Position numbers and translations under genes: made by a program | NCBI RefSeq assembly: GCF_964355755.1 | Contig: NC_092677.1 | Location: 5,027,001-5,091,000, forward strand | Direction: 5' to 3' | Origin: Antedon mediterranea | Lineage: Eukaryota; Echinodermata; Crinoidea; Comatulida; Antedonidae | Length of the DNA: 64,000 bases | Shown: in pieces, positions 26,101 through 51,514 of the stretch | How the letters are laid out: each line of letters begins with the position of its first letter | How positions within the stretch are numbered: the first letter of the stretch is position 1 | The notes under the pieces: generated by a model | The model's database searches: none | What the model was told of the DNA's origin: nothing | What the model saw: only the letters and a program-made list of their open reading frames with translations

Positions 26101-26619
26101 TGTATGTGCTACCCATTATTAATATTGGGTAGCACAAATTATACCGATAAAAATATGTCACATATTCGAATAATGTGCATAAGTGTACTGTGATGTCGGA
26201 TACACATAAAGTATATAGTTTGCAGGGTAGGTCTACCATAAGGATGGATTACTATTGCCATTTGTTTCCTATTTAAACTTACTATATAATAGAATAGATA
26301 ATAGAGGAAACGATTTTTTTTATTAATTAATTTGGCTTTCTACTACTAGTACTAGTAGATAGTCAAAATAATGAAAACCCATCTAAAATTTGGTTAAGCT
26401 GCATGCAACCTTGAGAAGGTCACATTGTTGAGAACTAATTACTTATTCAGAAACATACCAAAGTAGGCGTGTCTTCTGGTGTCACTACCTTTCAGTGACA
26501 AGTTAGAAATATCAATAAACCAGAGCTAACAAGACAGATCAGGGCTAATCCTATTAAACTATACCCATGATTCGTGGGGTAGCCAATGCTCACGTTTAGC
26601 CAGGCTCCGGCCGGTAATG
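23189..26619. mobile_element. TIR-bounded element carrying a satellite array
   Basis: The ends CATTACCGGCCGAAGCCTGG (left) and the inverted CATTACCGGCCGGAGCCTGG (right) match for about 30 bp including CTWAACGTGA. No transposase was recognised. Most of its right half is the hairpin satellite. The target duplication is not clear. Confidence 0.6.
24470..26170. repeat. about 16-copy satellite of about 105-bp units, each with a hairpin
   Basis: Each unit has GTGCTACCCATTATAGATAT then TGGGTAGCAC (a 10-bp inverted repeat around an AT-rich loop), a spacer with ACCGATATAAATATGTTACA, then AAAAAGGATAGTATTTGGTA and a GCATGCACGTATG variant. Two unit types seem to alternate, with 'GCATGCACGTATG' or 'GAAATGCACATAAG' before the hairpin. 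ORFs at 25740-26239 are repeat artefacts. Confidence 0.85.
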
Positions 26620-28644: not shown

Positions 28645-28692
28645 AGATGCATTTACTAGTAGGTGTAGTCATATTCCTGGTTTTTACTAATG
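28645..28692 (+). CDS. gene B exon 1: signal peptide
   Basis: Acceptor CAG at 28642-28644, ATG at 28647, donor GTAAGT at 28693. It encodes MHLLVGVVIFLVFTN plus one base. Cleavage would fall near the start of exon 2 (EAHCQL). Confidence 0.85.
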
Positions 28693-31600
28693 GTAAGTAC
28701 CTTGTATTTCATTTCAATACAGTTTTATACTTCATGCTTATTATGCGATTGAAAGTATCATTTTCTGTGATAGTTTCTAAGCAATATTCAAAATCCTGAA
28801 GGATGAAAGCCACACAAAAAGACAAATAAAAAAGCATAAATATATTTTCTTTACTTTAGACCTAATAATATATTCTTTCATTTTAGAGGCCCATTGCCAG
28901 TTGGTGACAACATCTGACCAGGAAGCCAATGAAGGTGATGCTGAAGTGGGGATAACTTGTGATTATTCACAATTTACTTCAACTGCACCTTATGCAATAC
29001 AATGGGATGAACTAAATGATGGTGGAGTAATTATCAACCCAGGAATTGTGAATACTAATAAGGTGCAAAGTGAACGTTTCAGGTTAGAAACTTCTCCTGG
29101 TAAAGCTAATCTGGTGATGTCACAACCGCTGAGAAAAGATTCTCAAAGAATATTTCAATGTCAGATAAAAACACTAAGTGGAGATATTCAGTTATCAAAT
29201 CCATCTATTCTAACTGTATATTGTGAGTAAAGTAGATTTAATATTCTGTTATTATACCACTATTTCTGATGTAATACAATATTGCACCTCAGTAGAAGTT
29301 AACCTTTTTAGTAGATAGAGTCCTGGAGCATCAGTTTGGTAGTAGGGGTGTGAGAGACCGAGGTGAACACATTTTAGACAATAGACCTTTAGCTGCACCT
29401 AGAAATTTCATTTAAACTTGGAATTTATTGACTTTATTTATTATTATTTTTCTGTTCTATCAATGTTTTATCTGAAAAATATAGAACACTAACAATGAAA
29501 GTGCTAAAAGTATAATGAATAAAAATATCCAATCTGCAGACAGTACTATTTTGATCTTAGATCTTGTCAGTGCAGCTCAGGTTTCACAATTATTATATAG
29601 CTTGAGCTATGTTGGATATGGTACAATGATTATGAACACAAAGAGTGCACAAACTCAACGAGCGTGAAATGAAAAATTCTATTAAATAATAAATTATTCT
29701 AACAAAAATGCATGGTGTGGATTTGAAGAGTGCTAGTCTAGAAAACAACATGCTTTTGTATATAGCAGAATGTAGAGAAGTGTAATATCTTATCTGCATA
29801 AAGAATAAATATAAATAAAAAAAATTATTTAACAACATTAATGATCTTTACTCTAGAAAATGTATTCTTAAAAAATACATTTATATTTTCTTTCTTTTGA
29901 TAATCAGACTTAAATCAACCACTTCTTGATGCCTCAGCAAGTACTGTCTATGAAGGTCAATCAGTGACCTTTACCTGTAGTAAACCTGATGGTTATCCTA
30001 TTCCTGACATTATTTGGTATAGAGATGGACAGACAGTCAACACCGACAACCCTTCTAGATATGAGATTGCAAATAGCAGTACAGAGTTAGTTCTTAAGAT
30101 TAGATCTGCTACTGATGAAGATGGTGGGAGATATACATGTAAAGCAGGAAGTGATCAGTTTAAAGGAGATGATGCTAGAACAAGTGAAGGAAAACAGTTG
30201 ATTGTAATTGGATATTGTATGTACACATTACTTTTAACATTACTATTAATAATTGTCTTGTTAAAAGTATGATTTATGTGATTTAAATTTGATTTTAGTT
30301 TTAGTTTAAATCTAGAGATAGACAGCATTAACATGAGCTAAATTTGTCTTTTTAGATATTTCCATTAATTTTACATCTGATGGTAGTTTTGCAACCTGTT
30401 CAGCAGATGGCTATCCCAGACCATTATCAGTATTGATATTACAAGATGGAGAAGTGGTTAAGAAAAGAGAAAATACAGCAACTATAGAAATTAATGATGA
30501 GATATGTCAATCAAGTCTTACCTGTAATGCAGAAAATGGAAAACTTAATCAAACAGCAGCATTAGAGAACTGTGGTCCAGGTCATACAGTATTCAAAATA
30601 CAATTATTACAAAGCTATACATACAAGTTTTAAAACAATATTTTAAGAAATTTAAAAATGATGTTATAAAATAGGTCTTCCTGGTTGATAGTATATACCA
30701 TTCACCAGAAAGAATAATACATTGCTTGAATGTTAGACCTACAGATAAAATTAATTTACATTGACATCTGAGCTGATCTTGTACTCCTTTTTCAGATATC
30801 ACTGTTGAGTTTACATCTGAAGGTGGTTTAGCGACATGTATAGCGGAGGGCCATCCCAAGCCATTATCGGTATTGATATTAAAAGATGGGGAAGTGGTTG
30901 AGAAAGAAGAAAATACAGCAACTATAAAAATAGATGACGAGATATGTCAATCAAGTCTTACATGTTTTGCAGAGAATGGAAACCTTAATGACACAGCCAC
31001 ACTGGAGAACTGTAGGCCCAAAGCTGGTAGACCTACAGATGGGCCTACAGGCAATATGAAAGGTACGTCACCATACTGTATTTACCAAGTTAGGTTAGTG
31101 ACTGAGCAATACATGTTGGTGGTATTTAGTTTAATGTAAAATGCAACCAACCATTGTTAAAAGATGATTTAATCATCGTAGTGATGTCTCAAAAGAGAAA
31201 GAAAGTTAAGAGAAAAAACAAAATGATTAAACAAATGTGTCAATATGAGTTAACAAATTAGAAAATAGTATAAAACAATGTTAATGTGTAGAAGAAAATG
31301 AATGTTAAAAGAAAATTTTTTTTGATTTTATTTATTACGTGCAATGTATTTCAATATTTTAAAAGATGATAAAATAAAAGTGGGATATACCAAGTAGATC
31401 ACCAAAATACATCAGGCCCGTAGCCAGGGGGGGTTTTTATGGTTCGGGCAAACCCCCCCTTTACAGCGAACCCCCCTTAACCGACTGCGAACCCCCATCC
31501 CCGACATGCCCAATACCTCACCCTCATCTCCAAAAATCCTCCAAATACGTGCCCCACAGTACAAAAAGTTGTTTGTAAATTGAAAAATTCGTAAACTTGT

Positions 31601-34600
31601 TCGTGAACCTTCTTCTCTGTATGAGCGTCAACTAGCGATACGTGTCTGTAAATTTCTAAAAGCTGCAAATGAATTGCCGATTTTAACCTGAAAAATAAAT
31701 GTTTGGTCCCTGCATGTAACATGATATTGACGCGTCTCATAGCGAACTGGGGCACGAACGATTCGTACAAAGGACACCGCCAGACAACTGCGTACCTATA
31801 ATTGTTTAGATCACTGGCAGTCAGGCAGCATGCATAAAGTATAATGTATCATAGAGGATTATAGTGAATATTAATATTTTACACTATAATAGTTCACATT
31901 ATGGCATCCGATTATTTTTTTCTAGACCACCAGCCGATACGTACTAAAATGTATCAATATCACCTATTTAAATATTTATATTCCTCAACAAATTGCTGTA
32001 AATAAATATTATAGATAGAGCTAGCAAATAGCATTTGCCTTCAACCAGTGTGCTTTTTTCGGGGCTGCTCCTAGATGTACGTTCGCATTGAACTTGAACG
32101 CAAAACAAAATACGGAGTAAATGATCAAGCAATCGGCGGTTCCGCACAGAGCACGATCTAACATACGGCAACAAATAGTTATCGTCCTTTAAATTATCGA
32201 CGTGTTTGAGAAGGAGGAAAAAAGTACGATCTTTTTGCTCATTGGTAGCATACTGCACGAGAGTGTCTTTTCCGGCCATCTAGGGGTGACATTTAACAAA
32301 ATTCGCTTCGCATCAGGCCCCACCCCCAGGGGGAGGGGCGGGTTGACCCAAATATTTAGTGTCCGAACCCCCCCTTGACAGATCCTGGCTACGGCCCTGT
32401 ACATTGCTCTTTAAACACTCCTTTTTGTTAAAACACAATTTGAAACAATGCAACTGTCAGACATTAATAACATGATGATTAACATCGCAAAATATTGCTT
32501 TATTTCATGTTCATCAAGACAACAACTACCGTACTAAAGTAACTACCATATCACAACATATTCTGCCTTTTCCATCTTCCCCATGAAACATCCAACCTTC
32601 CTCATTAGCAGTTAACACAATATCGCAAAGCAGAACACCAATAAGACTGGAAATTGGCACAGCCATTCTTCTTAACCAGAAATAGAAACATTTTTATAAA
32701 ATTGTGGTCAGTTGAAGAATTCACTAATTGCATTTTTAAAAATCACAGTAAATACTGCTGCAGGATATTTAACTGTAATGTATATTCATTAAAACATTGA
32801 TAGAGGTTTTTCAACGATAAGATGTATTTCCATTGAAATAACTTTGTTTTGATAATTGTTTATAATTGAAAATAAATTTGTTGTTAACAGTTATTTCAGA
32901 AGATTCAGGATCATCATACGCCATAATTCTGATTATTTTGTTTGTTGGTTTATTGACATGGTTACTTCTTCTTGTTTGTAAGTATCATGTACTGTATTAC
33001 TTAATGTCACTTTTGAATATCATAAGCCCTTTTTATTTCAGTGAATTTTAATAACAGTATTCACAAATTTGAAACCCTCAACTATGTTAGGGTTACATGG
33101 AGTACTATTAGAATGTTTTTATTTAGAATTTTTTATTTAGAATTTTTTATTTTTGGGATTTTGATTATTAATTGTAGTTTGATGAGTAATGAAACGAAAT
33201 AAATACTGCATGGACATAGATTACATAATATTTCATAATGATATTGATACAAAGATTGCTTTTACAGTATATTGGTAGACCAATAGGATTTATTTTAATT
33301 TAAAAAAATTTATTTTGTTTTAGATTTTATTTTTTACAAGAACATTGAGTGGAGCAATCAAGATAATGATATAGTGAGAGTTGAAGGTGGTAATCCAGTT
33401 GTGATGAGTTTTAAATACCGTCCAAGTATTGCAAGGTTCAAGACTTTTGAAATAAAGAAAGACAACAAGGTGCTTGGTTCAAATCAAAAGCAATTCATTA
33501 GTTGTAAAACAGTCTGTCAGTTTGTCTGTTATTGCTGTCTTTACTTTTTTGGATTTTTTTGTATTGAATACTGCATAAATAAAGGTAAGTTACATATTTT
33601 AATTTTGTTAGTAGGTCATTGTTTCTCAAGTCATCATTTCTGACAGTTCTAAAAGTTAGTAGTCTGATGTTGTTATTATTGATATATAAAAGTTTTTAAA
33701 TACAGCACTTTTTTACTTTATTCTGCTGGGAGAATGATACATTGTTTGTATATCATTGTTAATGGCTTACTGTCGATTTCTTTTCATTATACCTGTACAT
33801 TAGATGAATATTTTCTTATTTTTATTTAATAGTTAAATACAACAATAAAGATAAAAAGAAACATGGAAGGAGGTGAGTTGAGTTTGTAACATTGGTGGGA
33901 TTTATTTTGATTATTATATTTTAGCTAATTACAAATTTTATTGAAAGGTTATGGTTAATAAAAGAGAATGTCCTGGTGATGCATAGGTCTTCTTTGTAGT
34001 TTAATATTATTATCTTGTATTGTGTTCCTTATAGCAGTGGCAATAGAGGTGGTGAAGAGTATCAGATGATGGTCATTGAAAGACAAGGTCCTGATGGTGC
34101 AGAGTTACCTGCTGTTGTAATACAATTACCTAACAAGGATACAACAACTGACGAAACTGCTGTACAACAACCAACAGCAGCCACTGAATCTGAACAAAGT
34201 TCAGAGGTATTGTGAAAATACTAAATCCTTCATTCCTTGAATTGAAAGTACAAAGATACAAAAAGAAAAAAGACATGTTTGTTTAATAAAGTATTGTGTG
34301 TTTTGTGGTGTTTCGAAAAGGAAATTTTGACTCCTCCAATTTGATTCCTCTTTGGTACTTGAATTCTGTTTTTTAACAATAAAATGTTATCCTTTTTTTT
34401 CTAATTAGAGTAAAACCTATTCTTTGGGACACCTCTGTTCAAGGGCCACCCCAATTAAGGGGATACTTATCTGTGAAATAAATGAGACGCAATTTATTAT
34501 ATTGTAGCACTATGGCCAACCTTATTATGAGCCAAATGTGACCCTTATGGGTTTTACTATATTAACAAAATATAATTGTTTTTTTTCAAAGACAAATCCT

Positions 34601-37600
34601 GATGATGAAGATACTGAACTTTTAGCACAACATCAAGCAACATCTGATGTTAATACTGAAATTTCTGAAGAGGAAGGTAAACTTTTATATTATTTTCTAG
34701 AATACTTTTTTAGTATTTGGTAGGGGAAATGTTAACATTTGTTGTCACTATAATGTATTCTCAAAGCTGAGGTTTCCATTTTGAAAAAGTAAATTCGATA
34801 TTACCTGATACTTTTATTGTCAATATGAACAGATTGACTTTAGAATTCTTTTTCAGATGTAATAAAAACATGATGACATTAAAATGTTAAACACATGAGC
34901 AAATCAAAAGATATATAATCCTATTTGCACTATATATTGTGTATATTGAATTATGGGTAGAATTTTAACAAACTTGACCACCTCCAACCGACAATACAAA
35001 ATAGATTAATTAGCTGTAGATGGCAAGATTTATTGAATATGAGTTCATGATGTGGGATGGTAAATTTTTCTGATATTAAAATTCAATTCTTTCTCTCTGC
35101 TCTATTTTTAAAAGTCTGAAATCAAAATCCTATATCTGTAATAATATTTTATTAATCAATTAATCAATTTTGTTTACGTTTTGCTTGATAAATCTCAAAC
35201 TCAATACTACTGATCAGTAAAGTATTTTTTATGTTTTTTGTTTAAAAGGATGACATTTCGGCAACAATCATACAGTAAGAATTTATTAACATAAAAGCTT
35301 TAGAATGAGGCGTCCTCATTTTTGAAAATAATTTCTCACTTCCAATTCTAATCCTATAAATCCTAACGATGCATAGGATATTATTTGATAATGTTTCTTG
35401 GGTTTTTTAATTCATTGGCTTTTAACAATCATCAAAAAATTAACACGTGAAAGATAAGTACAGGCTCTTTTTAATTTATAGACAAACCCTTTTTGCAAAT
35501 AGAATATTCTCTAGGTTTGGTCAATTGAATAAACAAACAAACATAGAGCAGAGGGTATGCATGTAGCAGCATCATTCAACAAGATTTTGTTTGTTATTTG
35601 TTTTTAAAAACTGGTATTCCAATTCAGTGGTTCTTTGTTATATACAGTTTATTTCTGGCTAAATATTTTAATGAAATGTTAGTTTCTAGGTTTATATATA
35701 TAAATCCAAAGGCAAATTACTGAGAAAAATGACAATGCTGTGGGTATCAGTGGCTGGATCTCAATGGAGATACAAAAATAAAAAAGCGAAAAGCTAAATC
35801 AAAACGATAAAGTAAACAGCCAGAAAAGTTAGCAGAGCTTTCGGGCAACACTAGCCCTTCATCAGTGCAAGTGAAGGAATTTGGATAACATCATAGTATA
35901 AAGCTGGCAAGTGCTGCCTGGGTGGACATGAATAAAAGAAATATAACAAAGGGAGCCAGGGTGGAGTCTGAATAAGAGTGGAAAACAAAGAAGGTAGCTT
36001 GGTAGAGATATAAACAATTTTGGAATGAGACTAAAAAACAGCTAAAATGGTGGTTAATATTGAAACTTAAATTTTGGTAGTCAATGGAATAATTTTACTG
36101 ATCTGGGAGTATGTTATATATATATATATATTACCTCTTACATTCTATAACATTTGCAACCATTAATTAAGTACTCTAACACTGCCTTTGATTTTTAAGA
36201 TCTACCTTATTTTTTTCCTTTGTTTCTTTGTACTTTTTCATGTAAAAGTCGGGGATACTCATTTCCCTTGTATTACCATATTGTCTACTGTGTGTAACCT
36301 TTACTTATGAAAAAGTAGAAATAAAGATTACCGAACCTGACTGAAGCTGAAACTACAAGAAAAAAAGGCTAGAGGACATCTACATGCAATTTATATTAAG
36401 ATTTTATTTATGTACAATTTGTTGCTACTACTCAATTGGATTTTATTTTTAAAAAGCATGTTTCCTATAATATTTTTGCCCTTCAACAGATTCTGTATAT
36501 TTTTCTAAGACTAAGTTGTATTGTTGTTGTTTTTATGTTGTTTTAGCAAAAGACTCAAATGAAAGGTAACGGTTTGTGGTACTATAGCCAGAAAAGCTTA
36601 TTTAATGTTTTGCTTTAATTGCTTAGATTATTTATGTTGACAATTTAAAACATCAGAATATTATCTATCATCTTATTTATCTAATCATTTTCTACTTTTA
36701 TTCTTTTGTTTATTAGTTACTGTGTAGTACAGCTGTATCTGCCAATATTTGTTTGTTAACTGAATTCTAAATAAAATACACTATGTACATCAAGCACCTT
36801 TAAACCACAAGCTTCTATTTTGTGTGCTACATCTACAAACACCAACAATGTATTTTGGTTTATAAACATAACTGATTTTGATCTGAATTCTGATTCTTAA
36901 CTTTTTTTCCCTGCTCTAAAGTTACAATCTTCGTCGCATACTTTGTGATCTTCAATATGCTTAATTTAGTGAATATCACTATGTGTTTGTTGGAATCTTT
37001 GCTGCGCTTATTTGTAAATCTTTGGTGAACTTACTTTTCGTAGTATATTGCTTTTTTTATACCACTGTATTTTATACTCCCACTTTGTGTGGTATAAGAT
37101 GAATAAATTCCCTTACAATAACCTTTAAATTTTACATTCAATGGTTTAGTAAATTACCTTGTGTTATTGTTTGTTTTAAATTCTAATTCTTTCTTCATTC
37201 TTTCTTTTTTTTTAGATCTGATAAGCACTCAAGTAAGTAAAAACCATGATATTTTCTTTTAATATGACATTTACAAAGTGACATTACATTTATTTAAAGC
37301 TGATTCCTTCATAAAAGATGAAGTTTGTTTTAAGTAGAATAGGAACTTTCGTGTATATCAACATACCAGTATTTTATTCATTGATCTATATACAAAAGCC
37401 CATTTTATTATTGAATGGTGGATATCAAATTAATATTTTACTTTCAACTTGAAGGTAAATCATCTGCAATTAATATATATTTACTTTTCAGTGTTTACAA
37501 ATGGAAGAGGAAAAATCGGTCTAACGGTTTCAAATCTCGTGATATCTGATTCAGGAGAGTACAACTGCAACATAGAGGGCAATAGACAGCCAGGTCAAGG

Positions 37601-40600
37601 TGTCAAAAATTTAACTGTTTATTGTGAGTTTTATAAAAGATTTATTTTATTATTTTTATTATTTTTTTAATCACTTCACTCTACCATGTCAGATAAGATT
37701 ACAATTAAATAATGTATTAAATAATTGTTTAAGTTAAATCAGTTCCATGTGTTAAGTTCATAATTTTTATCTATCTAGTGGATAAGTAGTGGCCACCATT
37801 CCTTCATCTATGTAAAATGAATTATAACAATGTAACTTAGCTCTGTTTACACTATAAAACTAGTTTGACAAAAAAGTGTGATGTTCCAAAATATGGTAGT
37901 GATGCTCAAATACGGTAGTGATATGACATCATCATGTCCATATATGGGCACATCACATTATTTTGTAAAGTTTGATGGTGTAGACAAAGCTTAAGAGCAA
38001 ATTTCATCAGCTTATATATTTCTTGAAGGGATTGAGAGGAAAAATCATGGGTACTCAACAGAAGAAGGTATCAATAATTTTGAAATGAAGTGCAGATATG
38101 GACCATCAGATATGCCATTAACAGGTTACAAGTGGAAGAAGATTAAGGAAGATGGCACAACAGAGATTGAGGATTGTTCTCAAGATTCTAGATTTGAAGT
38201 AACAAGTTACCAAAATAGCATTCTGTCTTTGAAGATAAAGAATGTTATACTTGGTGATGCTGGGATGTATCAATGTGAAGTGAAGCCAGTTGATGGAGAA
38301 AAAATACTGAAAGATACTACACATCTGACAGTGAAGGAAGGTAACTTTATAGAATTAAATGAGAACCTGTTTATTTTTTTTTGTCTGGTTTAGAAAATGT
38401 GTGTGATAGTAAAGTATATGGTACAGTTGAGAAAATGTTGATGTTTATAATGCTTGATAAAGTGAAGTTAAGGGAATTTATCAACCTTAGGCTTGTGCAT
38501 GTTTAAGCTTGCCAAGAGATTGCCTACTGTAGTATTTCCAGAAGTTCATTGAAAAAGAAATTTAAATACAAAGTACACATTTTATCTTTTTTTCTTTAAA
38601 AGGCCTATAACATGGAATGTTTGTTTATCCTGTGTAATAATATGCATATTGATAATCTATTATTTACTAGCAAAATATAATGTAAATTTTGTATTAAGCT
38701 GATGAATATATTTTTGTTTAAAAACATTTTTTCCTGGAAATGTCTTTTATAGATGTTATCAAAATGGAGATTTCTGATGTTACTATCTATGAGGGTTTCA
38801 AGAGTGCTACATTGTTGTTAAACATAAGATATGTTGATGATTCTGCTAACATATCCAAAATCACATGGTGTATTAAGTATGTTGAAGGTGATGCAAAGAT
38901 GTTGTTAACATCACCTGATTCACGCTATGAATGTGAATATTTGGATTCAAAGAACAGTGTATGTTTTAATATCAACAATGTTGAACCTGAAGATGAAGGA
39001 GAGTACATATGTGAAGTAGAAGTTAAAGGAAGACAGAAAATATACAGATGTTCTGGAAGGCTAACGGTTAAAGGTAATGTATATGCTGCCAAATTAAAAT
39101 ACCTGGAATACCAGAGGTTGCAAATTCTTATTGTGAATCCAAATCAAACATACTGTAAATTTGAAGATGTAAACAACATTTTCCCACACACTTGCTTATA
39201 GCAATACTCATCAACAAAAGCATTTCTTAGGTAGTTTTGTTGTTGTTTGAATTCCAATATTTGGTTCATTCTGTCATTAATATCTACTGTTTTGAAACTG
39301 TGTTCATATTGTCGTCGTTCGGGTTCTATTCTACTTATGTCTTGTCAGGACGCACACACCAGAAGTAACGACGATACAATAAAAAGATTGGTTGCAATTT
39401 GGTATTCTTTATTTGTGAATATCCGTACCTCAAGGTGAAGAACACAACAGCAATGAAACAAAAATACAAAAAAACAAAACCCCTAAAAAACAATTAGAGA
39501 AATTCTTTAACAAAAAGTATAAAAGTTGACAATACATTATCTATCTCAACTATATAAATATCTCAAAACAAACAACAAGTTCTTAACATTTCTTTATATC
39601 GCATTAAGAATATTTCTGATAAAATCATTAACTAGGCCTCAATCAGTAGCATTGTACCCATAATAATACATGATATCAACAATCTAGCACTTGGCCATTC
39701 TGACTTACCCAACTAGAGATAAACTATCTTAAATCCTCAACTCAAAAAAATGACGGTAATCCTCCAATTTTGTGGTCAAATCTCACTTGTGCAAAACACT
39801 AAAAACAATAATCAATATAAGCCACAATAGTATAAACTAACCAACCTAATTATCTATTACTCTTCTATACTACTTATAACTAGCTCAAAACTCTAAAATA
39901 TTCATTTAAAATCTGACGCTAGATCCACATGGGCGCAGCCATCTTGAATCTTTGTTTACAACTATAGCGCCACCAATCATAAAATAAATCTTAATCAACT
40001 ACAGCATGACGCCCTCATCGGTCAAAAACTAGTTTACAAATCCACCATTTTATCGATAAAACTCATGTTCCGTGAACATAATCCTCGCAACATAATAAAT
40101 ACTCATAATCCAATAATTATACTCTTCCCTCAATAATATAATTATTTATAGGTCAATCACTGACACACAACTAGCCTGAGAAACAATATCTCCAATGTAA
40201 TTATTAACTCAATTTGTACCACTCTATGACTGATTTGACAGCGAGGTACACTAGCTGATTCTGTTGGCACAAAGCGAACATTTCCAACATAACTCGGTTG
40301 CGAATAACATTCATTCGAGCCTAGCCTAAAGTTACTTAATATATCGTGCAAACTACTTTTATCATCTACTGTAACTAACGTACCTTAGAACAAAATAATA
40401 TCAATCTAAAATTTGAAGTTTAACAGGTTTAATCAATCAGATGCATAAAGATAAATAACGGATGTTATTAACCTCAATCTCAGTTATCGGCGCTCCAAAA
40501 ACATGTCCTCTCGCAGTCGCGGTAACAGCCTCATTACACCGAACCATCATCAAAAATTATTACTCCTATAATCGTTTTCTTAATTCTCACTATTGCATTC

Positions 40601-43600
40601 AAAGTTTGTAATGTAAAGTATAACAAAATTGTATTAATGTATAAATCGTAATTTAACAACCAAGCTCTAAAATTGAACATCGTCAAATAACACTTAATTT
40701 GATGAACTATATTATTACACTGTTCTAGTTAGTTTGAATGAATTCAGTCTACGACAATATTATGGTATCATTACATGAGTTGATTCTTTTTTTATATATA
40801 GAAACAAGGGCCTACTCCCAAAAAAAGTAAGCAACTCTTACAAGTTGCAGTTACTGTATAATGGTGACAAAAATGTTTGTTTTTAATTAAATTTTGTTTG
40901 AACCATTTGTATTTGTAGGTCCTATAAAAATGGATATTCCTGATGTTATAACCAATAAAGGTGTGGAATGTGATAAGTTGTTGTTGAAACTTACATATTT
41001 TGATAAGTCTGCTGAAATATCTAATATCACATGGTATAAGCAGGTTGAAGGTGAAGCAAAAGAGCTGACATCATGGCAGTCACCTAATCCAACATCCGTA
41101 CAGTCACCTGATCCAACATCCATACAGTCACCTGATCCAACATCTGTACAGTCACCTGATCCAACATCCGTACAGTCACCTGATCCAACATCCGTACAGT
41201 CACCTGATCCAACATCCGTACAGTCACCTGATCCAACATCCGTACAGTCACCTGATCCAACATCATCACAGTCACCTGAGCCAACATCACGCTATGAAAT
41301 TGGATTTGTGGGTCAGAGCAATGTATATCTCAACATCAGCAATGTTGAATTTGAAGATGCAGGAGAGTACATATGTGAAGTGAAAATTGCAGGAAGACAG
41401 AAAACATACAGTTGTTCTGGAACTTTAACAGTTCAAGGTAATATATCTAAAAACATTTCTTTGCTGGAATTAAATACTACACTACTAATATACAACCTTG
41501 GAAGTAATATGTTTAGAAATGGCAAATGTGGTGTTTTATTAACAATAATAGTGAAAAATAATTGTATATTCCTACTTTCAGATATGACACTAAATGACTG
41601 TCTTGTGACAGTTGAAGATAAAGCTGTTTTAACTTGCAGGTATCAAATTAAGAATCCAGTAAAATCTATCAATTGGTATAAGAAGACTTGTGGTGAATAC
41701 AAGATGATATTTACTTCTGATACATTCAATCAGAAGATAGCAAATGTACCAGAAAGATATAAAGCAACTTTTAAGGATAATGAAACAAGCTTAGAGTTTG
41801 AGCAAGTGTCGGTAACTGATGCTGGAGAGTACATGTGTAAACTTGAGATTGAGCACTGTACACCAATGACCAAATTAGCAAACTTGTCTGTACAATGTAA
41901 GTAGATTTTAAAATATTTAATTTTCCATAAAAACTGATATTAATGTTGACTGTATTGTATTATTTTATACCTATAGACTGGCTATTATAATCAATCAAAT
42001 AGTATGTAAACCATGTGATTGAAATGTATTTATAGTACTTGTTAATAATAAATTTCTCTTCTGCCATTTGGCCATTTATTCACAATAGTAAACAATCAGT
42101 TCAATACATAAAATTAAGAATATAGATATTTTTTAAAATGTTTGCTCCATTTACGTTTAGTTGCTTCTTTTTGTAATATAATTGAAATATTATTAATAAC
42201 GTTGATTTCAAATATACCCAATTAAAAGGACAAATCAGTTTGAAATTTAATGGTTTGACTTGTTATTTTAAAGTATGTAAGTAAGTCAAGTTTGCTGACA
42301 CCTATACATTAATATATTTTGTTTTTGTAGTTGATGTGTTTACTGGAGTTGATGAACTAGGTAACACATACAGGTAATTGCCTTAATATTTATTACCACC
42401 ATGATTCTAAAAATCAAAACATTTAAAACTGCATGATTGGTTTGTTGATATCCATTCATAATTGTAAATTGTTTGGTTTTGTTTCCCATTTCCTTTTTTT
42501 TTCTTGGTTTATAGACATCCTGCGGTAGTCTTTTTGAATTCCCATTTACTTGTCTTTTGTGTGAAAAACAACTCGGATGTAATAATGAGAAGAGGAAAGA
42601 TGAACAAGAAGAGTTTTATTGAATGGGAAGAATCAAGAGTTATTTTACATGAAAAAGATACAAGGTATTAGAGAATGAAAATATTAATCTAATTTTGTAT
42701 TGCATAAAAGATTATTAAAGTTTATTTTAAAAATTCACATACAAAATTAGATTCTAATTCTTAAGTACAATCCTTTAATGAAATGTATTTGCTTAAAAAA
42801 AGGGGGATACAATTACAAATCTTATTTTAAAGCACTAATTATTATAAAATTACCATGACTATTTTTTAACTTAAAAATTGTTTAATATTTACTGTACAGC
42901 TATCATAATCCAGTACCAATTGTAACAAATAATGGAAAAGTGATTCTAATGTGTGTTAAAAATGAAAACAACACAAAAGAGAGGAAGATGATAAGGCTGA
43001 ACTCTGATGATAATGGAGAGAATTGGATTGAAGCATGTAATGTAGAAAACTCTCCAGGCGATATTCAAAGTAAGTTATTTTCAAATATTAAAGCTGAGAT
43101 TAATGCACTTTTCAGGGTTTGTATCCATGATTTATTTTGTCTAATATATGGTTTGATGTGTATTTTCTCGGTTTTTATGTGAAATCTTTTGCCAACAACT
43201 TTCTATTTTTCAGGCCTAGGTCATGGTGTATGTTTAGATTCAGGGAAATTAATTATTGCAGGAGTTGAAAATCTGGACAATAACGAGAGTAAGAAAAGTA
43301 ACACAATTAATAAACTTTTGTAAAATTATGGATGTGCTTAAATATTAATATTCAATCAAAAATCAATAATCTTTTGTAAGTTCAACATACTGTAATTTAA
43401 CATAACATAATTGTAAATCACTAATTGTATTGTGTATCATTAAAAATAAATATAACAGTGACATTGTTTTTTTTGTGTGGAATTTGGAGAATTGTGTTTG
43501 TGTTGTTTTTGCAGGAAAACTATTTGTAATGACCAGTACTGATAATGGTGACACCTGGGATATTGTATATGCTGGAGAGAACACTGGTATGCATCTCATA

Positions 43601-44982
43601 GGTCTATATTTAAAGAAGCATTGATTTTCCTCCTTTACAAACACCTTAAAGATTTTATCTGACAAATTTTATTTTTAGAAAATTGTGAGAAAAGTATGAA
43701 TTCTGCAAATCTTTTGTTTGTGTAGAAAATCTTTGGAGTACTGATAACCTTAACAGTTGGGAACTTCTAAATACTGTTAAACCACAATATGCTACCTTAG
43801 GAGAACACATACAAGTAAGATTAAAGAAGCATTGCTTGAAGAGACTGAGTTTCATTCAAAGAATTATAAGAACTAGACTGTCAACTGTAACGCATTCAAA
43901 AATAATTCCACAATGGAAAGAGACCATTTTGATATGGCTGCATTAATTGCATGGCGACTCAGATAAGCCAGTTATTCTTATTTTATAAGATAATATTCTT
44001 TTTTTTCATTAATTCATTCATAAAGGTATATTTATTAAAAATAATCTTCACATTAAAATTGAATTGCAATTGATTTTTACATGATAAAGTTTGCATGTTA
44101 TGTATAAAAATGTAATAATATTTTTATATATTTTAACTTGACTATACATTGTTTGCAGAATTCTTTAGCCTTTTGCTACCTACTGTATGTACCAGAATGT
44201 CTTTAATAAGTAAATAAATATACCTGATTATAAATATGTTTACTGCCATGTTTGCATAACTACACTGTTGCTCAGTTGACACTCTATTAGTTTAATAGTA
44301 TCTCTATGGTTTAGTTTGAGATTGGATTATTTTTGTCAAACACAAACTTTAGTTTACTGCTTTAAGTGCCATTTTGGCATAATATCTCATGTGTTTATTA
44401 GGTTCTTGAATATGCAAATGACAAAGTTTACATCAGCTGTTCATTGTACAATAGTAAGCAACGTTTGACTGCATACAGCAATGATGGATGTGAAACATTT
44501 GAAATTGACAATGAATTGTTAGAGACAAATCCAAAATGTCAGGTAATCTACATGCAAGAAGTCTTGTATATCTAATGTATTGTCTAGATAGATCAGATCT
44601 AGAAAGATCTACATAACTAAAAATGCTTTTTCTTGTTGAATAGAACATGTTGTAATAATTTAATTAAAATGTTATTATTACCTAGGGTGGTATTGTATGT
44701 TTACCAACCAAGACAGATGAGTTCAACCAAATAGCAATGGCAAGTCATGGAAATGAAACAAATAAGGATCTTACACTTTACTTAAGTGAAGATGGTTGTA
44801 AAACATGGTCTCAGTTTAACACACTAGGTGCAGTGAATGCAGAAGAATCTGACCTAGCTTACTACAGTGTAAAAGAAGGGAAAGAAGAAGCAAAGGGAAT
44901 AGTGTGTGTTTACAGTTATGGTTCAGAAACAAAGGGTTATAATATTGGAATGCAGTTGATTTCTAACCAAGAAATTATGTAA
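28645..44982 (+). CDS. gene B: Ig receptor joined to an Ig-sialidase module
   Basis: ATG at 28647; 25 exons join in frame to TAA at 44980-44982, giving exactly 1,500 codons. Order: signal MHLLVGVVIFLVFTN; Ig1; Ig2; two copies of the third Ig-like domain; TM; a Cys-rich hydrophobic exon; five acidic/Ser linker exons; a half Ig domain; four Ig domains; a sialidase-like domain over eight exons with four Asp boxes. Every junction has GT/AG and matching phase. Individual exons are convincing. The join between the receptor part (to 37232) and the Ig-sialidase part (from 37492) is inferred from phase and from the same order in gene D. Two genes remain possible, since a cytoplasmic-looking tail precedes the second Ig block. 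AATAAA is at 45098-45103. Confidence 0.65.
28887..29222 (+). CDS. gene B exon 2: Ig domain 1
   Basis: 336 nt, phase 1-1, donor GTGAGT. It shows VGITCDYS, IQWDELND, LVMSQPLRKDSQRIFQCQI and ILTVY, closely matching genes A and C. Confidence 0.9.
29908..30216 (+). CDS. gene B exon 3: Ig domain 2
   Basis: 309 nt, phase 1-1, donor GTATGT. It shows VTFTCSKPDGYPIP, IIWYRDGQ, SRYEIANSSTELVLKI and GRYTCKAGSDQFKG. Confidence 0.9.
30356..30580 (+). CDS. gene B exon 4: third-type Ig-like domain, first copy
   Basis: 225 nt, phase 1-1. It shows FATCSADGYPRPLSVLILQ and SSLTCNAENGKLN. It ends at CCAG|GTCATA, a weak donor, and lacks the GRPTDGPT stalk of its neighbour. It is a tandem duplicate of the next exon. 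Confidence 0.75.
30796..31062 (+). CDS. gene B exon 5: third-type Ig-like domain, second copy, and stalk
   Basis: 267 nt (the same length as gene A exon 4), phase 1-1. It shows LATCIAEGHPKPLSVLILK, SSLTCFAENGNLN and a GRPTDGPTGNMKG stalk. Confidence 0.85.
31413..32399. mobile_element. hAT-like non-autonomous element in a gene B intron
   Basis: The ends CAGGCCCGTAGCCAGG and inverted CAGGGCCGTAGCCAGG are flanked by a TACAT duplication (31408-31412, 32400-32404). G/C-runs (GGGGGGG) lie just inside both ends. CAGGG termini fit hAT. Frames at 31477-31770 and 31968-32404 show no transposase. A second copy begins at 63873. Confidence 0.75.
32891..32977 (+). CDS. gene B exon 6: transmembrane segment 1
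   Basis: 87 nt, phase 1-1. VISEDSGSSY is followed by AIILIILFVGLLTWLLLLV, a full-length TM helix. Homologous to gene D exon 51425-51514. Confidence 0.85.
33324..33584 (+). CDS. gene B exon 7: conserved basic loop and Cys-rich hydrophobic segment
   Basis: 261 nt, phase 1-1. It starts NIEWSNQDND, continues VEGGNPVVMSFKYRPSIARF and KTFEIKKDNKVLGSN, and ends in a segment with about eight cysteines among hydrophobics (CKTVCQFVCYCC, then YFFGFFCIEYC). Gene D has an exon of identical length, 52582-52842, with very high identity. I do not recognise the family. The Cys-rich part could be a second membrane segment or a palmitoylated patch. Confidence 0.8.
33833..33872 (+). CDS. gene B exon 8: basic juxtamembrane linker
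   Basis: 40 nt, phase 1 to 2, donor GTGAGT. It encodes KYNNKDKKKHGR; the dense positive charge right after the Cys-rich segment argues that this side is cytoplasmic. Confidence 0.65.
34035..34206 (+). CDS. gene B exon 9: acidic/Thr-rich tail
   Basis: 172 nt, phase 2 to 0. It contains GGEEYQMMVIERQ and AVVIQLPNKDTTTDE. If the donor at 34207 is not used, the frame stops three codons later (EVL stop). The gene D counterpart is 53392-53482. Confidence 0.65.
34592..34676 (+). CDS. gene B exon 10: acidic tail
   Basis: 85 nt, phase 0 to 1. TNPDDEDTELLAQHQATSDV then TEISEEE. The gene D counterpart 54832-54886 has TSSDDSETSPLTKHQEEQ. An alternative terminal exon at 34857 (DVIKT stop) is possible. 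Confidence 0.65.
35735..36350. mobile_element. possible Penelope-like element terminal fragment
   Basis: A 600-bp block in a gene B intron resembles, from memory, terminal repeats of Penelope-like retroelements because of its hammerhead-like core on the minus strand (35839-35865). No reverse transcriptase is visible and the borders are approximate. Confidence 0.4.
35832..35868 (-). ncRNA. hammerhead ribozyme-like core
   Basis: Minus strand, 5' to 3': CTGATGA (35865-35859), one unpaired A, stem II GGGC/GCCC (35857-35854 with 35846-35843) closing a 7-nt loop, then GAAA (35842-35839) and a minimal GC-TCT-GC stem III. Core sequence and order match a type I hammerhead as found in Penelope-like elements. 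Stem I pairing is poor, so activity is doubtful. Confidence 0.4.
36547..36565 (+). CDS. gene B exon 11: 19-nt microexon
   Basis: TTTTAG|CAAAAGACTCAAATGAAAG|GTAACG, phase 1 to 2, encoding AKDSNE. Its counterpart in gene D (55647-55665) has the same length, phase and sequence type. Confidence 0.6.
37216..37232 (+). CDS. gene B exon 12: 17-nt microexon or terminal codons
   Basis: TTTAG|ATCTGATAAGCACTCAA|GTAAGTAA, phase 2 to 1. If spliced it encodes SDKHS and continues; if retained the frame ends SSK stop within the donor. The gene D counterpart is 56768-56781. Confidence 0.55.
37492..37623 (+). CDS. gene B exon 13: C-terminal half of an Ig domain
   Basis: 132 nt, phase 1-1, donor GTGAGT. FTNGRGKIGLTVSNLVISDS then GEYNCNIEGN and LTVY are the D-to-G strands of an Ig domain; the strand with the first Cys and the Trp is missing. 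Gene D has the same half (57326-57457). Confidence 0.75.
38029..38340 (+). CDS. gene B exon 14: Ig domain (array type)
   Basis: 312 nt, phase 1-1. It shows FEMKCRYGPSDMPLTGYKWK, DSRFEVTSYQNSILSLKI and GMYQCEVKPVDGE. It is very close to the five exons at 61032-63381. Confidence 0.85.
38753..39073 (+). CDS. gene B exon 15: Ig domain
   Basis: 321 nt, phase 1-1. It shows LLLNIRYVDD (no first canonical Cys), ITWCIKYVEGD, SRYECEYLDS and GEYICEVEVKG. It is the close paralogue of the next exon and carries a single TSPDSRYE where that exon has repeats. Confidence 0.85.
39074..40918 (+). other. gene B intron, no coding signal
   Basis: 1.8 kb with many short frames but no recognised element and no clear inverted ends. 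Composition from about 39300 to 40600 differs (more CG and ACAC words), which suggests an old insertion whose borders I could not place. Confidence 0.4.
40919..41437 (+). CDS. gene B exon 16: Ig domain with a Pro/Thr/Ser repeat insert
   Basis: 519 nt, phase 1-1. It shows MDIPDVITNKG, ITWYKQVEGEAKELTS, then nine 8-residue repeats, then SRYEIGFVGQS, GEYICEVKIAG and LTVQ. The insert lies between the C' and D strands, on the loop side of the fold. Confidence 0.9.
41074..41289 (+). repeat. nine 24-bp coding repeats (consensus VQSPDPTS)
   Basis: 216 bp, exactly nine in-frame units; the first (WQSPNPTS) and last (SQSPEPTS) are the most diverged and the inner ones nearly identical. Pro/Thr/Ser content suggests an O-glycosylated, extended insert. 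Confidence 0.95.
41582..41896 (+). CDS. gene B exon 17: last Ig domain
   Basis: 315 nt, phase 1-1. It shows AVLTCRYQIKNPVKSINWYK, SLEFEQVSVTDAGEYMCKLE and LANLSVQ. It directly precedes the sialidase-like domain. Confidence 0.9.
42331..42373 (+). CDS. gene B exon 18: start of sialidase-like domain
   Basis: 43 nt, phase 1 to 2. FDVFTGVDELGNTYR; with the next exon it forms TYRHPAVVFL, the counterpart of the sialidase F/YRIP motif with its Arg kept. Confidence 0.8.
42515..42664 (+). CDS. gene B exon 19: sialidase-like domain
   Basis: 150 nt, phase 2-2. HPAVVFLNSHLLVFCVKNN then DVIMRRGKMNKKSFIEWEES. The 'RRG....W' stretch corresponds to the NEU2/3/4-type beta hairpin after the first blade. Confidence 0.85.
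42900..43069 (+). CDS. gene B exon 20: sialidase-like domain, Asp box 1
   Basis: 170 nt, phase 2 to 1. YHNPVPIVTNNGKVILMC (compare NPCP in vertebrate NEU enzymes) and the Asp box SDDNGENW. Confidence 0.85.
43214..43288 (+). CDS. gene B exon 21: sialidase-like domain
   Basis: 75 nt, phase 1-1. LGHGVCLDSGKLIIAGVEN fits the NEU 'GHC/GL....G.LV.P' strand pair. Confidence 0.75.
43515..43586 (+). CDS. gene B exon 22: sialidase-like domain, Asp box 2
   Basis: 72 nt, phase 1-1. KLFVMTSTDNGDTWDIVYAG contains the canonical Asp box STDNGDTW. Confidence 0.85.
43726..43814 (+). CDS. gene B exon 23: sialidase-like domain
   Basis: 89 nt, phase 1 to 0. NLWSTDNLNSWELLN, then LGEHIQ; the Glu lies where the NEU family has the catalytic Glu that assists the nucleophile. 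Confidence 0.75.
44402..44542 (+). CDS. gene B exon 24: sialidase-like domain, Asp box 3
   Basis: 141 nt, phase 0-0. VLEYANDKVYISCSLYNS and the box SNDGCETF. The second Arg of the catalytic triad (in NEU enzymes within an 'NARS'-type turn) is not present at the aligned place. Confidence 0.85.
44686..44982 (+). CDS. gene B exon 25: end of sialidase-like domain, Asp box 4
   Basis: 297 nt including TAA. GGIVCLPTK, KDLTLYLSEDGCKTW (box 4), EESDLAYYSV and GIVCVYSYGSE match the last blades of NEU enzymes in order. The nucleophile Tyr (YSDL in NEU) aligns with Glu (ESDL). Confidence 0.85.
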   Translation, partial: GGIVCLPTKTDEFNQIAMASHGNETNKDLTLYLSEDGCKTWSQFNTLGAVNAEESDLAYYSVKEGKEEAKGIVCVYSYGSETKGYNIGMQLISNQEIM

Positions 44983-45097: not shown

Positions 45098-45103
45098 AAT
45101 AAA
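45098..45103 (+). terminator. poly(A) signal of gene B
   Basis: AATAAA about 115 bp after the stop codon, followed by a T-rich stretch. Confidence 0.5.
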
Positions 45104-46265: not shown

Positions 46266-49200
46266 CTAAAGGAGTAAAAAAAATATTATTATTATAATTT
46301 GTGTGAGACAATTAATATTCTTTTTAACTTTTCAGTTGATAAAAATTTTATTGATGAATGTGCCATGTTTAAAAATTTAGTTATTTGCCCGCCAGTCGAT
46401 CCAAAAAACAACGCTGCTTTTGCACTGTCGGATTGTTAATGTATGATATAAAGTAGGACTCAATTGCAATGTAAATTAAAAAGTACAAGTATTAAGTATA
46501 CCGCACTGAAACTTCCAACACATTTGATAGGCCTCGCGCTTCTTTGTACTGAGCATTTTGTGCATTCTATTTCTATCGTCAGGCTTCTCATCCGATGGTG
46601 CAAGAAATGGTGATACACAATATGAAATGTATTTTAAAAGATTTTACCTCTACCTTTGCAATGCATGCTTCGTTAGACGTAGGCTTCACATATCCCTCAT
46701 CATCAGAGCTTGTCGAAAGTTGCAGACTTTGGTCCTGAAGATTTTGACTTTTAATTTCTTCTTCTCTCTGTAAAGCAGGCAATAGATAATTATGTTTTGT
46801 CGATTTTGTGATACTTGGTGTTGAATGTCAACAACCAAATGGTAATTCCAATTTGTAAATTGATAATAGTAGGTTAAACTCTATTCTGAAACCTTTTGAA
46901 TCAGTTCGCAAATGTCGCAATGGGAAAAGTTGAAATTTCGTTCAGGTCAGGTTTATTAATTTTAATATTAGTTTTCCTAATACAAAATATTTACCTGTAT
47001 TCTTGTTCTAGACAAGCTTGCTTTATTTGACGTCCTGGTATCACCAGCGTCCACAGTCGGATCTGTGTTTATCTCGTTGTAATCTCCAACATTTGAAGGA
47101 AATTGTAATGTTTGATATTGAGGATTTTGATAATTAAAATGGATTTCTTTTATTCGTCTTACCTTAAAGAAACAATACTGATAACAGTAGATATAATATC
47201 TATTTCAATTGCATTTTTAGGCCTATTTTCATTTTTTTTTAAATCTTTTGTAGTTACCAGTATAAATACGTTTTAGCGAAAGTCAATATTGTATATTGAT
47301 TTAAAAGTACTTACATAAATATAACGAGTTAGTATAAACGTCGGGACGGAGCAAAGGATTGCAGTTAGGCCTACGGTTATCACTGCACCTAAAGAATAAC
47401 CTAAACAATTCGCAATGTCAAAATGTTGATATATACACTATTGAACAGGCTACAACGGTTAAAAATGAAAAACGTGTACAATAAAGTATAACTTATTTTA
47501 CTCAGTTAAATAAAATAAACTCAGCATGTGGCCTACATTATAATATTTAAATTGGTTACTTAATGATGACCTAGATTGTTTTGTAAAAACTGACGAAGCA
47601 ACCGTGAAATCAGGAGAGATCCAAATCGCAGTATGCGCTAATTATTCATCATTTTCATAATCATCATTAAACAATGTTAATGCAGTTGTATACATTTGGA
47701 AATATTTTCCCTTTTAGTAAACTTACCTGCATTGCAGTTCTTCGGTGTTATTGTGTGATTAAGACTTTCATTATCTGCATAACTTGTAAGATTTGATTCA
47801 CATGTTATATCATCAGTTTCTATAATTTCTGAATGATTTTCTTTCTTAATCACTTCTCCGTTTTGCAATATCAATAGGCCTACTGATGACGTTTTTGGGT
47901 ATCCCTCTACTGTAAAAGTTGCAAGTCCATCTTCAGTTTTAAATTTTACAATGATATCTAAACAAAATATAAACTTAAATTGTAACTATTGTAATTAACA
48001 CATTGTAACACTAGTTTACAAGAATTTTTAGAAATTATTTAAACACTGCTTGTTTAAACTAAAAACTTGATAATTTTACATTTGAATCAATGTATGTATA
48101 AAATGATGAGATATTGTAAACAAATTTAACATGAATGTTGTGCCACCCAATAGTAGGCCTACACTCAACCACTAATGTATCATTTTCTAATCACGTAACA
48201 AAACAGTAATGTAAAGAACAGTTGAAAATGGTATTTTTTGTGGAAAATGTATTGACTTGATATATTGAACTTTCAAGAATTTTTACACAAGAATGTTTTC
48301 CAAACCAAAATACCCTTTAACATGTTCTACTTTTTAAGTTTTTGTAATAAATGCAACAGTTTAGTGATTGATTGTTTGTTTACATACAATATGTGTTCAA
48401 CTGTTGCCCAATACTTGTTTTAGCATCATCTCCTTTAAACTGATCACTTTCTGCTTTACATGTATATCTCCCATCATCGCGTTCAGTAGCTGATTTAATC
48501 TTAAGAACTGACTCTGTACTGTTATTTGAAATCTCATATCTAGAAGGGTTGTTGACTGTCTGTCCATCTTTATACCAAGTAATGTGAGGAATAGGATATC
48601 CATCGGGTTTACTACAGATAAAGGTCACTGATTGACCTTTAAAGACAGTGCTTTCTGTTGCACGAAAAAGTGGTTGATCCAAATCTGATAATAAAAAGTA
48701 TTGTTTACTCAAAACAGGTACGTTACAAAGTTACAAAGGGTAGATCATAATTATGTAAATTAACTTTCTGTTTAATTGATATTAAAATAGTTATTACATA
48801 TCAAGTGTAACTTGAATTTTCATAGATCTGATATTTAATATGCCCTTTTATTTCTATTTGAACGGAAATACTTGAATTACTAATTACTAGAAATACAGAT
48901 GTTACTCACAATATACAGTTAGTATAGATGTGTTTGATCTTTCAATATCTCCATTTGTTGTCGCTACCTCACACTGAAATCTTCGCTGAGAATCAGATCT
49001 CGTTGGCTGTGACATCACCAAGTCAGCTTTCCCAGGTGTTATGTTTAATGTAAAACGGTCATTCTCTGGCTTATTATCATTCACAACGTTAATGGTAGAT
49101 CCATCTTCATATTTTTCATCCCATTGTATTCCAGAAGTAACTTTTGAATAATTACAAGTTATAACCACTTCTGCATCTCCTTCCTTGGCTTCCTGGTCAG

Positions 49201-49547
49201 ATGTTGTCACCAGTTGACCATGTGTTTCTAACAAATAAAAACGCGAATACAAATGTTACTCTCTATTAATCATAAAATGATTAATTAAAACTATTTATAT
49301 ACTATTTTCATTGTTAGTTTTGCCACAAACACAACTGAAATTTCATCTGAATGATTTACAACCATTTTTATTTGCAATTGCTTTTACATTAAACACGCAA
49401 GTGAAAGATAGTTTAAAAAGCATCCGACGTAAGTCTACTTCTATTATTCGTCGAACATAGAAGACAACAACTTCAACATAAATATCTATATAATAATAAA
49501 GTGTTACCAATTAATGAATGTATAACAATTAGCAGCGCCAACCATAT
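46146..49547 (-). CDS. Ig receptor gene C, paralogue of gene A
   Basis: Eight exons join in frame from high to low coordinates: 49547-49508, 49227-48910, 48684-48388, 47957-47727, 47388-47315, 47162-46995, 46767-46654 (or 46648) and 46265-46146 (TAA). They give about 453 residues: hydrophobic leader, three Ig domains, stalk, TM and a three-exon tail. The layout and phases equal gene A, plus one extra tail exon. Oddities: the leader exon begins ATA TGG where gene A has ATG; the third Ig-like domain has lost both canonical cysteines. The tail has GDYNEIN, GYVKP, VYEKH and EPYYSKQFYE, suggesting SH2-adaptor binding (inferred). It lies head to head with gene D. Confidence 0.75.
46648..46767 (-). 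CDS. gene C exon 7: tail exon with YVKP
   Basis: Phase 0-0, with two adjacent donors (GTAGAG after 46654, GTAAAA after 46648) that differ by two codons. REEEIKSQNLQDQS, then DDEGYVKPTS. No counterpart was found in gene A. Confidence 0.7.
46995..47162 (-). CDS. gene C exon 6: proximal tail
   Basis: 168 nt, phase 0-0. VRRIKEIHFNYQNPQYQ, then NVGDYNEINTD aligned with gene A NVDVYSELN, then RTSNKASLSRTRIQ. Confidence 0.8.
47315..47388 (-). CDS. gene C exon 5: transmembrane segment
   Basis: 74 nt, phase 1 to 0. AVITVGLTAILCSVPTFIL then TRYIY. The Pro inside the helix differs from gene A. Confidence 0.8.
47727..47957 (-). CDS. gene C exon 4: third Ig-like domain without canonical cysteines
   Basis: 231 nt, phase 1-1. 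LATFTVEGYPKTSSV and SNLTSYADNESLN: Cys is replaced by Phe and Ser, while the second pair (ITCES, KNCNA) is kept. Two extra codons GGC CTA follow SSV. The stalk is shorter than in gene A. Confidence 0.8.
48388..48684 (-). CDS. gene C exon 3: Ig domain 2
   Basis: 297 nt, phase 1-1. VTFICSKPDGYPIP, ITWYKDGQ, SRYEISNNSTESVLKI and GRYTCKAESDQFKG. Confidence 0.85.
48910..49227 (-). CDS. gene C exon 2: Ig domain 1
   Basis: 318 nt, phase 1-1. VVITCNYSKV, IQWDEKYEDG, LVMSQPTRSDSQRRFQCEV and ILTVY. Confidence 0.85.
49508..49547 (-). CDS. gene C leader exon, start codon unclear
   Basis: Follows TTTTTCTCTCAG; donor GTAAC. In the frame that fits exon 2 it reads ATA then WLALLIVIHSLI. An ATG two bases in is out of frame. 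Either ATG became ATA or the true start is in an upstream exon. Confidence 0.55.
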
Positions 49548-51424: not shown

Positions 51425-51514
51425 CTATTCCAGCAGATTCATATGTTATTTTGATTGTGGTGGTGGTGGTGGTTTTTTGCCTTTTGTTTATTGTGTGGAT
51501 AATGCTTCTTGTTT
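51425..51514 (+). CDS. gene D TM exon
   Basis: 90 nt, phase 1-1, donor GTAAGT. AIPADSY then VILIVVVVVVVFCLLFIVW. Confidence 0.75.

Follow-up and report, generated by a model that had tools for sequence, protein, structure and literature searches.

Can one animal gene carry both an immunoglobulin (Ig) receptor and a sialidase fold on a single chain? The question is raised by a locus of the crinoid Antedon mediterranea, in a 64,000-nucleotide (nt) stretch of DNA (the window hereafter; NC_092677.1, here contig C8, positions 5,027,001-5,091,000), where a preliminary description had read 25 exons as one 4,500-nt in-frame chain and had taken the gene, here called W1, for a single unusual one. We rebuilt the chain from the DNA and searched the genome (354 Mb, 18 contigs) for its relatives. 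W1 is a member of a large tandem family and no lone odd gene, with 19 units typed by one of its exons, exon 7. We consider it a tandemly expanded Ig-superfamily coding gene of which, on the balance of the DNA evidence, at least one transcript probably joins an Ig ectodomain through to a sialidase propeller, itself a probable binder.

One open frame across 25 exons

W1 lies on the plus strand at 28645-44982 of the window. Its 25 exons sum to 4,502 nt from 28645, and the 4,500-nt coding frame, from the ATG at 28647 to a TAA ending at 44982, is a single frame with zero internal stops and AG/GT at the exon borders, which were set by AG/GT plus phase. The previously described chain is thus recovered, and a near-identical copy, c5292, keeps all 25 exons open.

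Exon 1 (28645-28692) carries the start codon and a signal peptide recognized by eye, and is identical in c5292. It is followed by a V-type Ig1 in exon 2 (28887-29222; V-set 19.5 of 26 bits, E 0.0011), an I-set type Ig2 in exon 3 (29908-30216; Ig_3 E 4e-16) and two short Ig-like domains in exons 4 and 5 (30356-31062; 74 and 88 amino acids; Ig_3 E 0.021 and 0.016, below the cut-off). Exon 6 (32891-32977) is a transmembrane (TM) exon with a mean hydropathy of 3.13 over 19 residues, and exon 7 (33324-33584) is Cys-rich, its first part resembling half a V-type Ig. A hydrophilic linker or tail in exons 8-10 (33833-34676), for which the majority of the 19 copies have relatives downstream of exon 7, in part at weak scores, leads to two microexons of 19 and 17 nt (exon 11, 36547-36565; exon 12, 37216-37232). 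Beyond them come the second half of a V-type Ig in exon 13 (37492-37623; V-set 19.4 of 26 bits alone, E 0.0013), four Ig domains in exons 14-17 (38029-41896; V-set E 2.3e-8, 3.7e-5, 1.1e-9 and 2.8e-11, that of exon 15 just short of the cut-off at 24.3 of 26 bits) and a degenerate sialidase propeller in exons 18-25 (42331-44982), whose stop is followed after 116 nt by an AATAAA (45098-45103), a weak signal given 33 such hexamers on the plus strand between 28645 and 45200.

In an exon-by-exon search, exons 3, 14, 16 and 17 exceed a curated Pfam Ig cut-off and exons 2, 4, 5, 13 and 15 fall below it; exons 4 and 5 are only marginal. Nothing in Pfam scores above its cut-off on exon 7, and an NCBIfam search gave no match above a cut-off. 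Exon 16 contains an 8-residue repeat (24 nt x 8.8 copies, 41077-41288) and measures 519 nt in W1, 447 nt in c5292 and 519 nt in another copy, c5322.

End phases are 1 for exons 1-7, then 2, 0, 1 and 2 for exons 8, 9, 10 and 11, 1 for exons 12-17, 2 for exons 18-19, 1 for exons 20-22 and 0 for exons 23-25. Because most of the Ig, TM and Cys exons are phase 1-1, an open summed frame alone does not prove which exons are joined. The phase-changing exons 8-12 and 18 are the carriers of joining evidence.

A tandem family with a conserved unit order

Genome searches returned 95 matches for the sialidase domain (E limit 10), 84 for the half Ig plus exon 14 (0.01), 34 for the TM-to-tail part (0.1) and 154 for Ig1-Ig2 (0.001), counts that are lower bounds and, for the Ig search, also reach other Ig genes. 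From these matches we typed 48 Ig1-type exons and 19 each of exon 7, exon 13 and the sialidase last exon, with some of the last-exon matches partial. Nearly all lie within 1.1 Mb of C8 (4.70-5.80 Mb), and the rest are on C3 near 26.15 Mb and on C4 near 12.7 Mb. Counting on the same strand and before the next exon-7 unit, exon 7 is followed by exon 13 within 30 kb in 19 of 19 units; 18 of these then have exon 14, and 15 go on to reach a last exon of the sialidase inside 35 kb; when strands were shuffled 1,000 times, the full order was reached by 4.3 units on average and 9 at most. Across 12 aligned copies, 36 of the 86 columns of exon 7 are invariant.

Two copies can be followed along the whole gene. 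The first, c5292 (C8 5.289-5.307 Mb), is 97% identical across the exon 6-10 stretch; all 25 exons project onto it with AG/GT at every internal border and indels of only -3, -72 and +3, giving a chain of 4,428 nt with zero internal stops. In the second, c5322 (C8 5.317-5.334 Mb), the 5' edge of exon 1 is unaligned, none of exons 2-25 has a stop in its own frame, and the exon indels are multiples of three apart from one considered below. Diverged copies are mostly unalignable outside the exons. Across copies, the ratio of non-synonymous to synonymous differences (pN/pS) is 0.44 for exon 19 (36 pairs) and 0.45 for the Cys part of exon 7 (171 pairs), and 0.89 for Ig exon 14 (136 pairs) and 0.92 for the first part of exon 7 (171 pairs), so that the sialidase fold shows signs of constraint.

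Exons that bridge the receptor and sialidase halves

Patterns for the two microexons were written from W1 and the second window copy, W2, and then searched across the 19 copies. Exon 11 recurs in 14 of 19 and exon 12 in 15 of 19, always between exon 7 and exon 13, and exon 12 is 14, 17 or 20 nt long, each length being 2 mod 3. The patterns had zero matches in 95 shuffled sequences and zero on reverse strands. With the two pattern sources and two near-identical copies set aside, the counts are 10 of 15 and 11 of 15; the copies are related, so these recurrences are non-independent events. Recurrence in the copies led us to reject the idea that exon 12 is spurious. Exon 12 starts in phase 2, and since upstream only exons 8 and 11 provide a phase-2 donor, it ties the receptor half to exon 13, ahead of which it ends in phase 1.

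On the sialidase side, exon 18, with its (D/N)VF(T/S) start, is found in 9 of 10 copies, one of them on contig C3, exon 19 in 9 of 10 and the last exon in 10 of 10, each being the best candidate under the phase constraint. Exons 22 and 23 of W1 are apparently one exon in seven copies. The join of the Ig exons to the sialidase is supported because exon 18 opens the sialidase fold, has no start of its own and recurs in the copies. The Ig-to-sialidase exon chain of the preliminary description, including its weak-looking microexons, therefore holds up by recurrence.

A sialidase fold without a complete catalytic set

Within the C-terminal 345 residues, positions 34-301 match Pfam BNR_2 (E 7.6e-22). 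Assignment to a different beta-propeller family, which would have told against the earlier reading, did not result; in the profile search, sortilin reached 26.5 bits on this region, below its cut-off of 33. Since a single-sequence search of PDB was weak (best E 0.0023; 13 matches, including two maltoporins), we used a profile of the sialidase domain of four copies, with 14 matches in PDB at E <=0.01, the best at 9.6e-7; of these, 13 carry the name sialidase or are constructs that contain one, and the last is Hz136, which we take to be a sialidase. The NEU-like domain proposed earlier is thus supported as a sialidase beta-propeller by sequence, with an incomplete catalytic set. Four Asp-box-like motifs were seen by eye (SDDNGENW, STDNGDTW, SNDGCETF and SEDGCKTW).

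The genome also has canonical sialidase genes on C5 at 1.19, 3.47 and 24.33 Mb, with four BNR_2 matches, three of them read across two exons, and catalytic motifs kept. These three retain YRxP, an EAR-type loop with Asp, VEL/SEL with NAR/NVR, the Arg before NITL/NMTL, AYS and the Glu of the last motif. Set against them, the cluster copies retain the first Arg in the YRIP/YRxP motif (8 of 8 with the exon 18-19 junction resolved) and the VVE Glu, VLE in W1 (9 of 9). All three of the genome's own sialidases have the acid/base Asp loop behind the EAR motif; it is deleted from all 9 cluster copies in which exon 19 is present, and the nearby Asp (NSD) of most cluster copies aligns elsewhere. None of the 9 copies with exon 24 has the second triad Arg, c5748m having an Arg two residues earlier; the NanJ alignment of the PDB profile search likewise shows no Arg at this position. 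The third triad Arg is absent in 10 of 10 readable copies, and the late Glu is replaced in 9 of 9. At the nucleophile Tyr, MAFFT pairs LAYYS with AAYST, so that Tyr is kept, and anchoring on SDL puts Glu there. Which residue plays which catalytic part in this alignment is in part our assumption.

Residues of this kind are essential in sialidases, according to PMC3431349. Because the Asp loop and two of the three substrate Args are lost, we read the domain as one that has kept its fold and given up catalysis, probably a binding module and not an enzyme. The earlier suggestion of glycan recognition is affected accordingly: the architecture stands, and the module behind the suggestion, lacking several catalytic residues, is probably a dead enzyme.

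Membrane topology and splice forms

Upstream of exon 7, exon 6 is found in 15 of 19 copies, with a hydropathy of 2.98-3.69 that marks a clear TM segment; the Cys part of exon 7 is borderline (0.93-2.00). Later in the chain, exon 14 has the Ig cysteine pair in all 6 copies read, as has exon 17 in 5 of 6. W1 has four N-glycosylation sequons before residue 371, nine after residue 660 and none between, where about two would be expected, a weak pattern that weakly fits a lumenal site for both blocks. Paired Ig cysteines in two later Ig exons and sequons on either side of the membrane part suggest that both ends would be extracellular, either through a two-pass hairpin formed by exons 6 and 7 or through skipping of exon 6.

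For exon 7, AlphaFold places strands at 15-17, 25-32, 37-45 and 48-53 and helices at 60-75 and 80-85, with a mean predicted local distance difference test (pLDDT) score of 54.7. V-set over the first part of exon 7 plus exon 13 reaches 29.3 bits in copy c4761, spanning both halves, where exon 13 alone is unscored; in W1 the two halves give 20.1 bits vs 19.4 for exon 13 alone. A profile comparison of the first part of exon 7 with Ig exon 14 is weak (probability 6%). As a lead, exon 13 may complete a V-type Ig begun by the first part of exon 7. A direct join from an internal donor of exon 7 to exon 13 was rejected as the main form, the donor being GG in 5 of 19 copies and GC in 1 of 19. On this sequence evidence, the earlier alternative of a receptor or a secreted protein would be left to splicing, given the TM exon in mid-chain.

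Weighing the alternatives

Several observations count against the joined chain. In c5322 a +1 near the end of exon 2 makes a frameshift, and its linker exons 8-12 carry 12 non-synonymous changes vs 1 synonymous change; the ratio of non-synonymous to synonymous substitution rates (dN/dS) over exons 2-25, 0.70 for c5292 and 0.82 for c5322, indicates weak constraint. The pattern search did not find exon 11 in 5 of 19 copies or exon 12 in 4 of 19, and neither microexon was found in c5424, c5720m and c5748m (on C3 only a small part of the exon 7-13 stretch was covered). No exon 16 was found in any of the 7 diverged copies; exon 15 is without its first Ig cysteine where readable, as is exon 17 on C3. 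Within the limits used, a sialidase last exon is missing behind 4 of the 19 exon-7 units (W2, C8 5.350, C8 5.722 on the minus strand, and C4), and one of the 15 complete units is much longer than the others, at 34.2 kb from exon 7. For a chain with later Ig domains that need the lumen, it is awkward that a strongly hydrophobic TM exon lies in the middle with the Lys-rich exon 8 after it, an alternative last exon at 36717 is plausible, and copies both dispersed and in tandem could carry two neighbouring genes together.

Some of these points lead to other ways of reading the locus. One transcription unit could give two products, a membrane Ig receptor ending at about 36.76 kb and a secreted Ig-sialidase made by omitting the exons for the membrane segment and the tail, in which case the complete chain of 1,500 codons would be rare or never made. 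Since the majority of exons are phase 1-1, leaving some out would not disturb the frame; a possible terminal exon at 36717-36759 fits the phase after exon 11, in frame, with a stop and an AATAAA at 36770 seen by eye; read-through past exon 11 in W1 hits a stop at once, also by eye; and the c4761 score and the low-confidence AlphaFold strands allow a single V-type Ig divided between the first part of exon 7 and exon 13. We nevertheless judge this arrangement fairly unlikely, because upstream the conserved exon 12 can follow only exon 8 or exon 11, both tail exons, and the internal donor needed for the 7 to 13 join is unconserved. Topology, and the same possible last exon with its AATAAA, could also mark the end of a separate gene, an Ig receptor at 28.6-36.8 kb duplicated together with a neighbouring Ig-sialidase gene whose first exon was missed. 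This we hold to be improbable, since no half-Ig frame of at least 40 amino acids was seen ahead of exon 13 (a shorter signal-peptide exon would have been missed), exon 13 is itself half an Ig with a phase-1 acceptor, and in most copies the gap is spanned by microexons 11 and 12.

That the chain is a receptor-bound active sialidase, removing sialic acid from targets held by its Ig domains, would fit the BNR_2 fold, the retained YRxP Arg and VVE Glu and the Tyr that MAFFT sets in the nucleophile column; against the uniform loss of the Asp loop, of the second and third Args and of the late Glu, we find it highly improbable. We give as little weight to a decaying pseudogene array: c5322 is frameshifted, c4899 appears, by eye, to be frameshifted at the end of its last exon, and several units have no sialidase end, but W1 and c5292 are intact over 25 exons and exon 19 shows the low pN/pS given above.

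We thus continue to favour the joined chain, on the basis of exon phases, copies and microexon conservation. Its transcript would run from an N-terminal Ig ectodomain through a membrane segment, a Cys-rich exon, a charged linker and V-type Igs to a C-terminal sialidase beta-propeller. The propeller would most likely serve as a lectin or protein-binding head rather than as a sialidase, and together with the Ig domains it could recognize the glycans or glycoproteins of microbes, gametes or other cells, the many germline copies providing the diversity. A more specific picture strikes us as unlikely in full: a germline-diversified echinoderm family whose multi-Ig chain passes through the membrane twice and has a dead propeller as its lectin head, with one V-type Ig divided by the membrane hairpin into an exon 7 half and an exon 13 half, and with copies that can gain Ig exons by array expansion.

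Neighbouring copies and other features

The second, diverged copy in the window, W2 (51425-63380, plus strand), comprises exons 6-13, both microexons among them, and five exon-14-like Ig exons in a row at 61033-63380 (plus strand), the next typed plus-strand sialidase last exon being at C8 5,205,971, more than 110 kb on. Paralogs of Ig1-Ig4 lie on the opposite strand at 19956-21440 and 47689-49228 of the window. No TM exon was found behind them within 6.5 and 5.7 kb, respectively, by a scan that recovered a known exon as control, and these minus-strand genes may be secreted or end otherwise. Elsewhere on the contig, C8:5,120,984-5,142,005 (minus strand) holds at least 39 exon-14-like Ig exons arranged as repeating units, with the same score for many of them, an array expansion of Ig exons. 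A sialidase copy at C8:4,885,646-4,887,118 has as its nearest listed upstream exon 7 one (4,801,359) that already has another sialidase behind it. Many weak Ig2 matches (about 30% identity) at C8:1.08-1.66 Mb may mark another cluster of Ig genes on this contig. In the genome as a whole, one bindin exon match (PF02084, E 2.3e-28), from a family known from echinoderms, supports the echinoderm origin suggested by the preliminary description; a search for GH6, made to probe a tunicate origin, had no match, its control giving none either, and a COX1 search detected no mitochondrial contig. The window also contains a direct-repeat array with shifts of about 100 bases (24476-26173) and an intron insert with inverted G/C-rich ends, seen by eye, that is likely a transposable element (31413-32402).

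Relation to known recognition systems

The closest parallels are in architecture. The VIgL proteins of snails (FREPs, CREPs and GREPs) likewise combine Ig-superfamily and lectin-type domains in a multigene recognition family, as outlined in PMC12074976. Siglecs are Ig receptors that bind sialic acid (PMC9630641), and the trans-sialidases of Trypanosoma cruzi likewise form a large family, most genes of which are said in PMC5020489 to encode proteins inactive as enzymes. W1 differs from VIgL in its degenerate C-terminal sialidase propeller, its roughly nine Ig units, its mid-chain TM exon and its echinoderm origin, and the likeness is one of architecture; membership is not indicated, as no fibrinogen-related, C-type lectin or galectin domain is among the Pfam matches of W1. 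VCBPs of amphioxus and tunicates likewise join Ig-like domains to a carbohydrate-binding (chitin-binding) module and have germline diversity. The carbohydrate module of VCBPs is another one, and they are not known to have a propeller; CREPs carry a C-type lectin and GREPs a galectin; siglecs are not known to have a sialidase module, and no link of W1 to them was seen, no siglec profile having been compared; and the T. cruzi family is protozoan and not known to carry animal Ig domains. W1 shares the beta-propeller, the Asp boxes and the YRxP motif with NEU1-NEU5 of family GH33. As described in PMC3431349, known animal sialidases are enzymes with conserved catalytic residues, of which W1 has lost several, and Ig domains precede its propeller; the same text notes echinoderms for their diverse sialic acids.

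No animal Ig-sialidase protein was found in the literature searched, which comprised titles and the starts of abstracts, with subscription papers mostly outside reach. The cluster suggests a large family of sugar-recognizing echinoderm proteins that we did not find described in that literature. Invertebrates have repeatedly paired Ig domains with a lectin module to build recognition repertoires, and a megabase cluster that couples Ig domains to a disarmed sialidase would add a new combination. It is a candidate for echinoderm immune, gamete or self recognition and, if true, would provide an example, in an animal, of an enzymatic sialidase fold becoming a probable binder.

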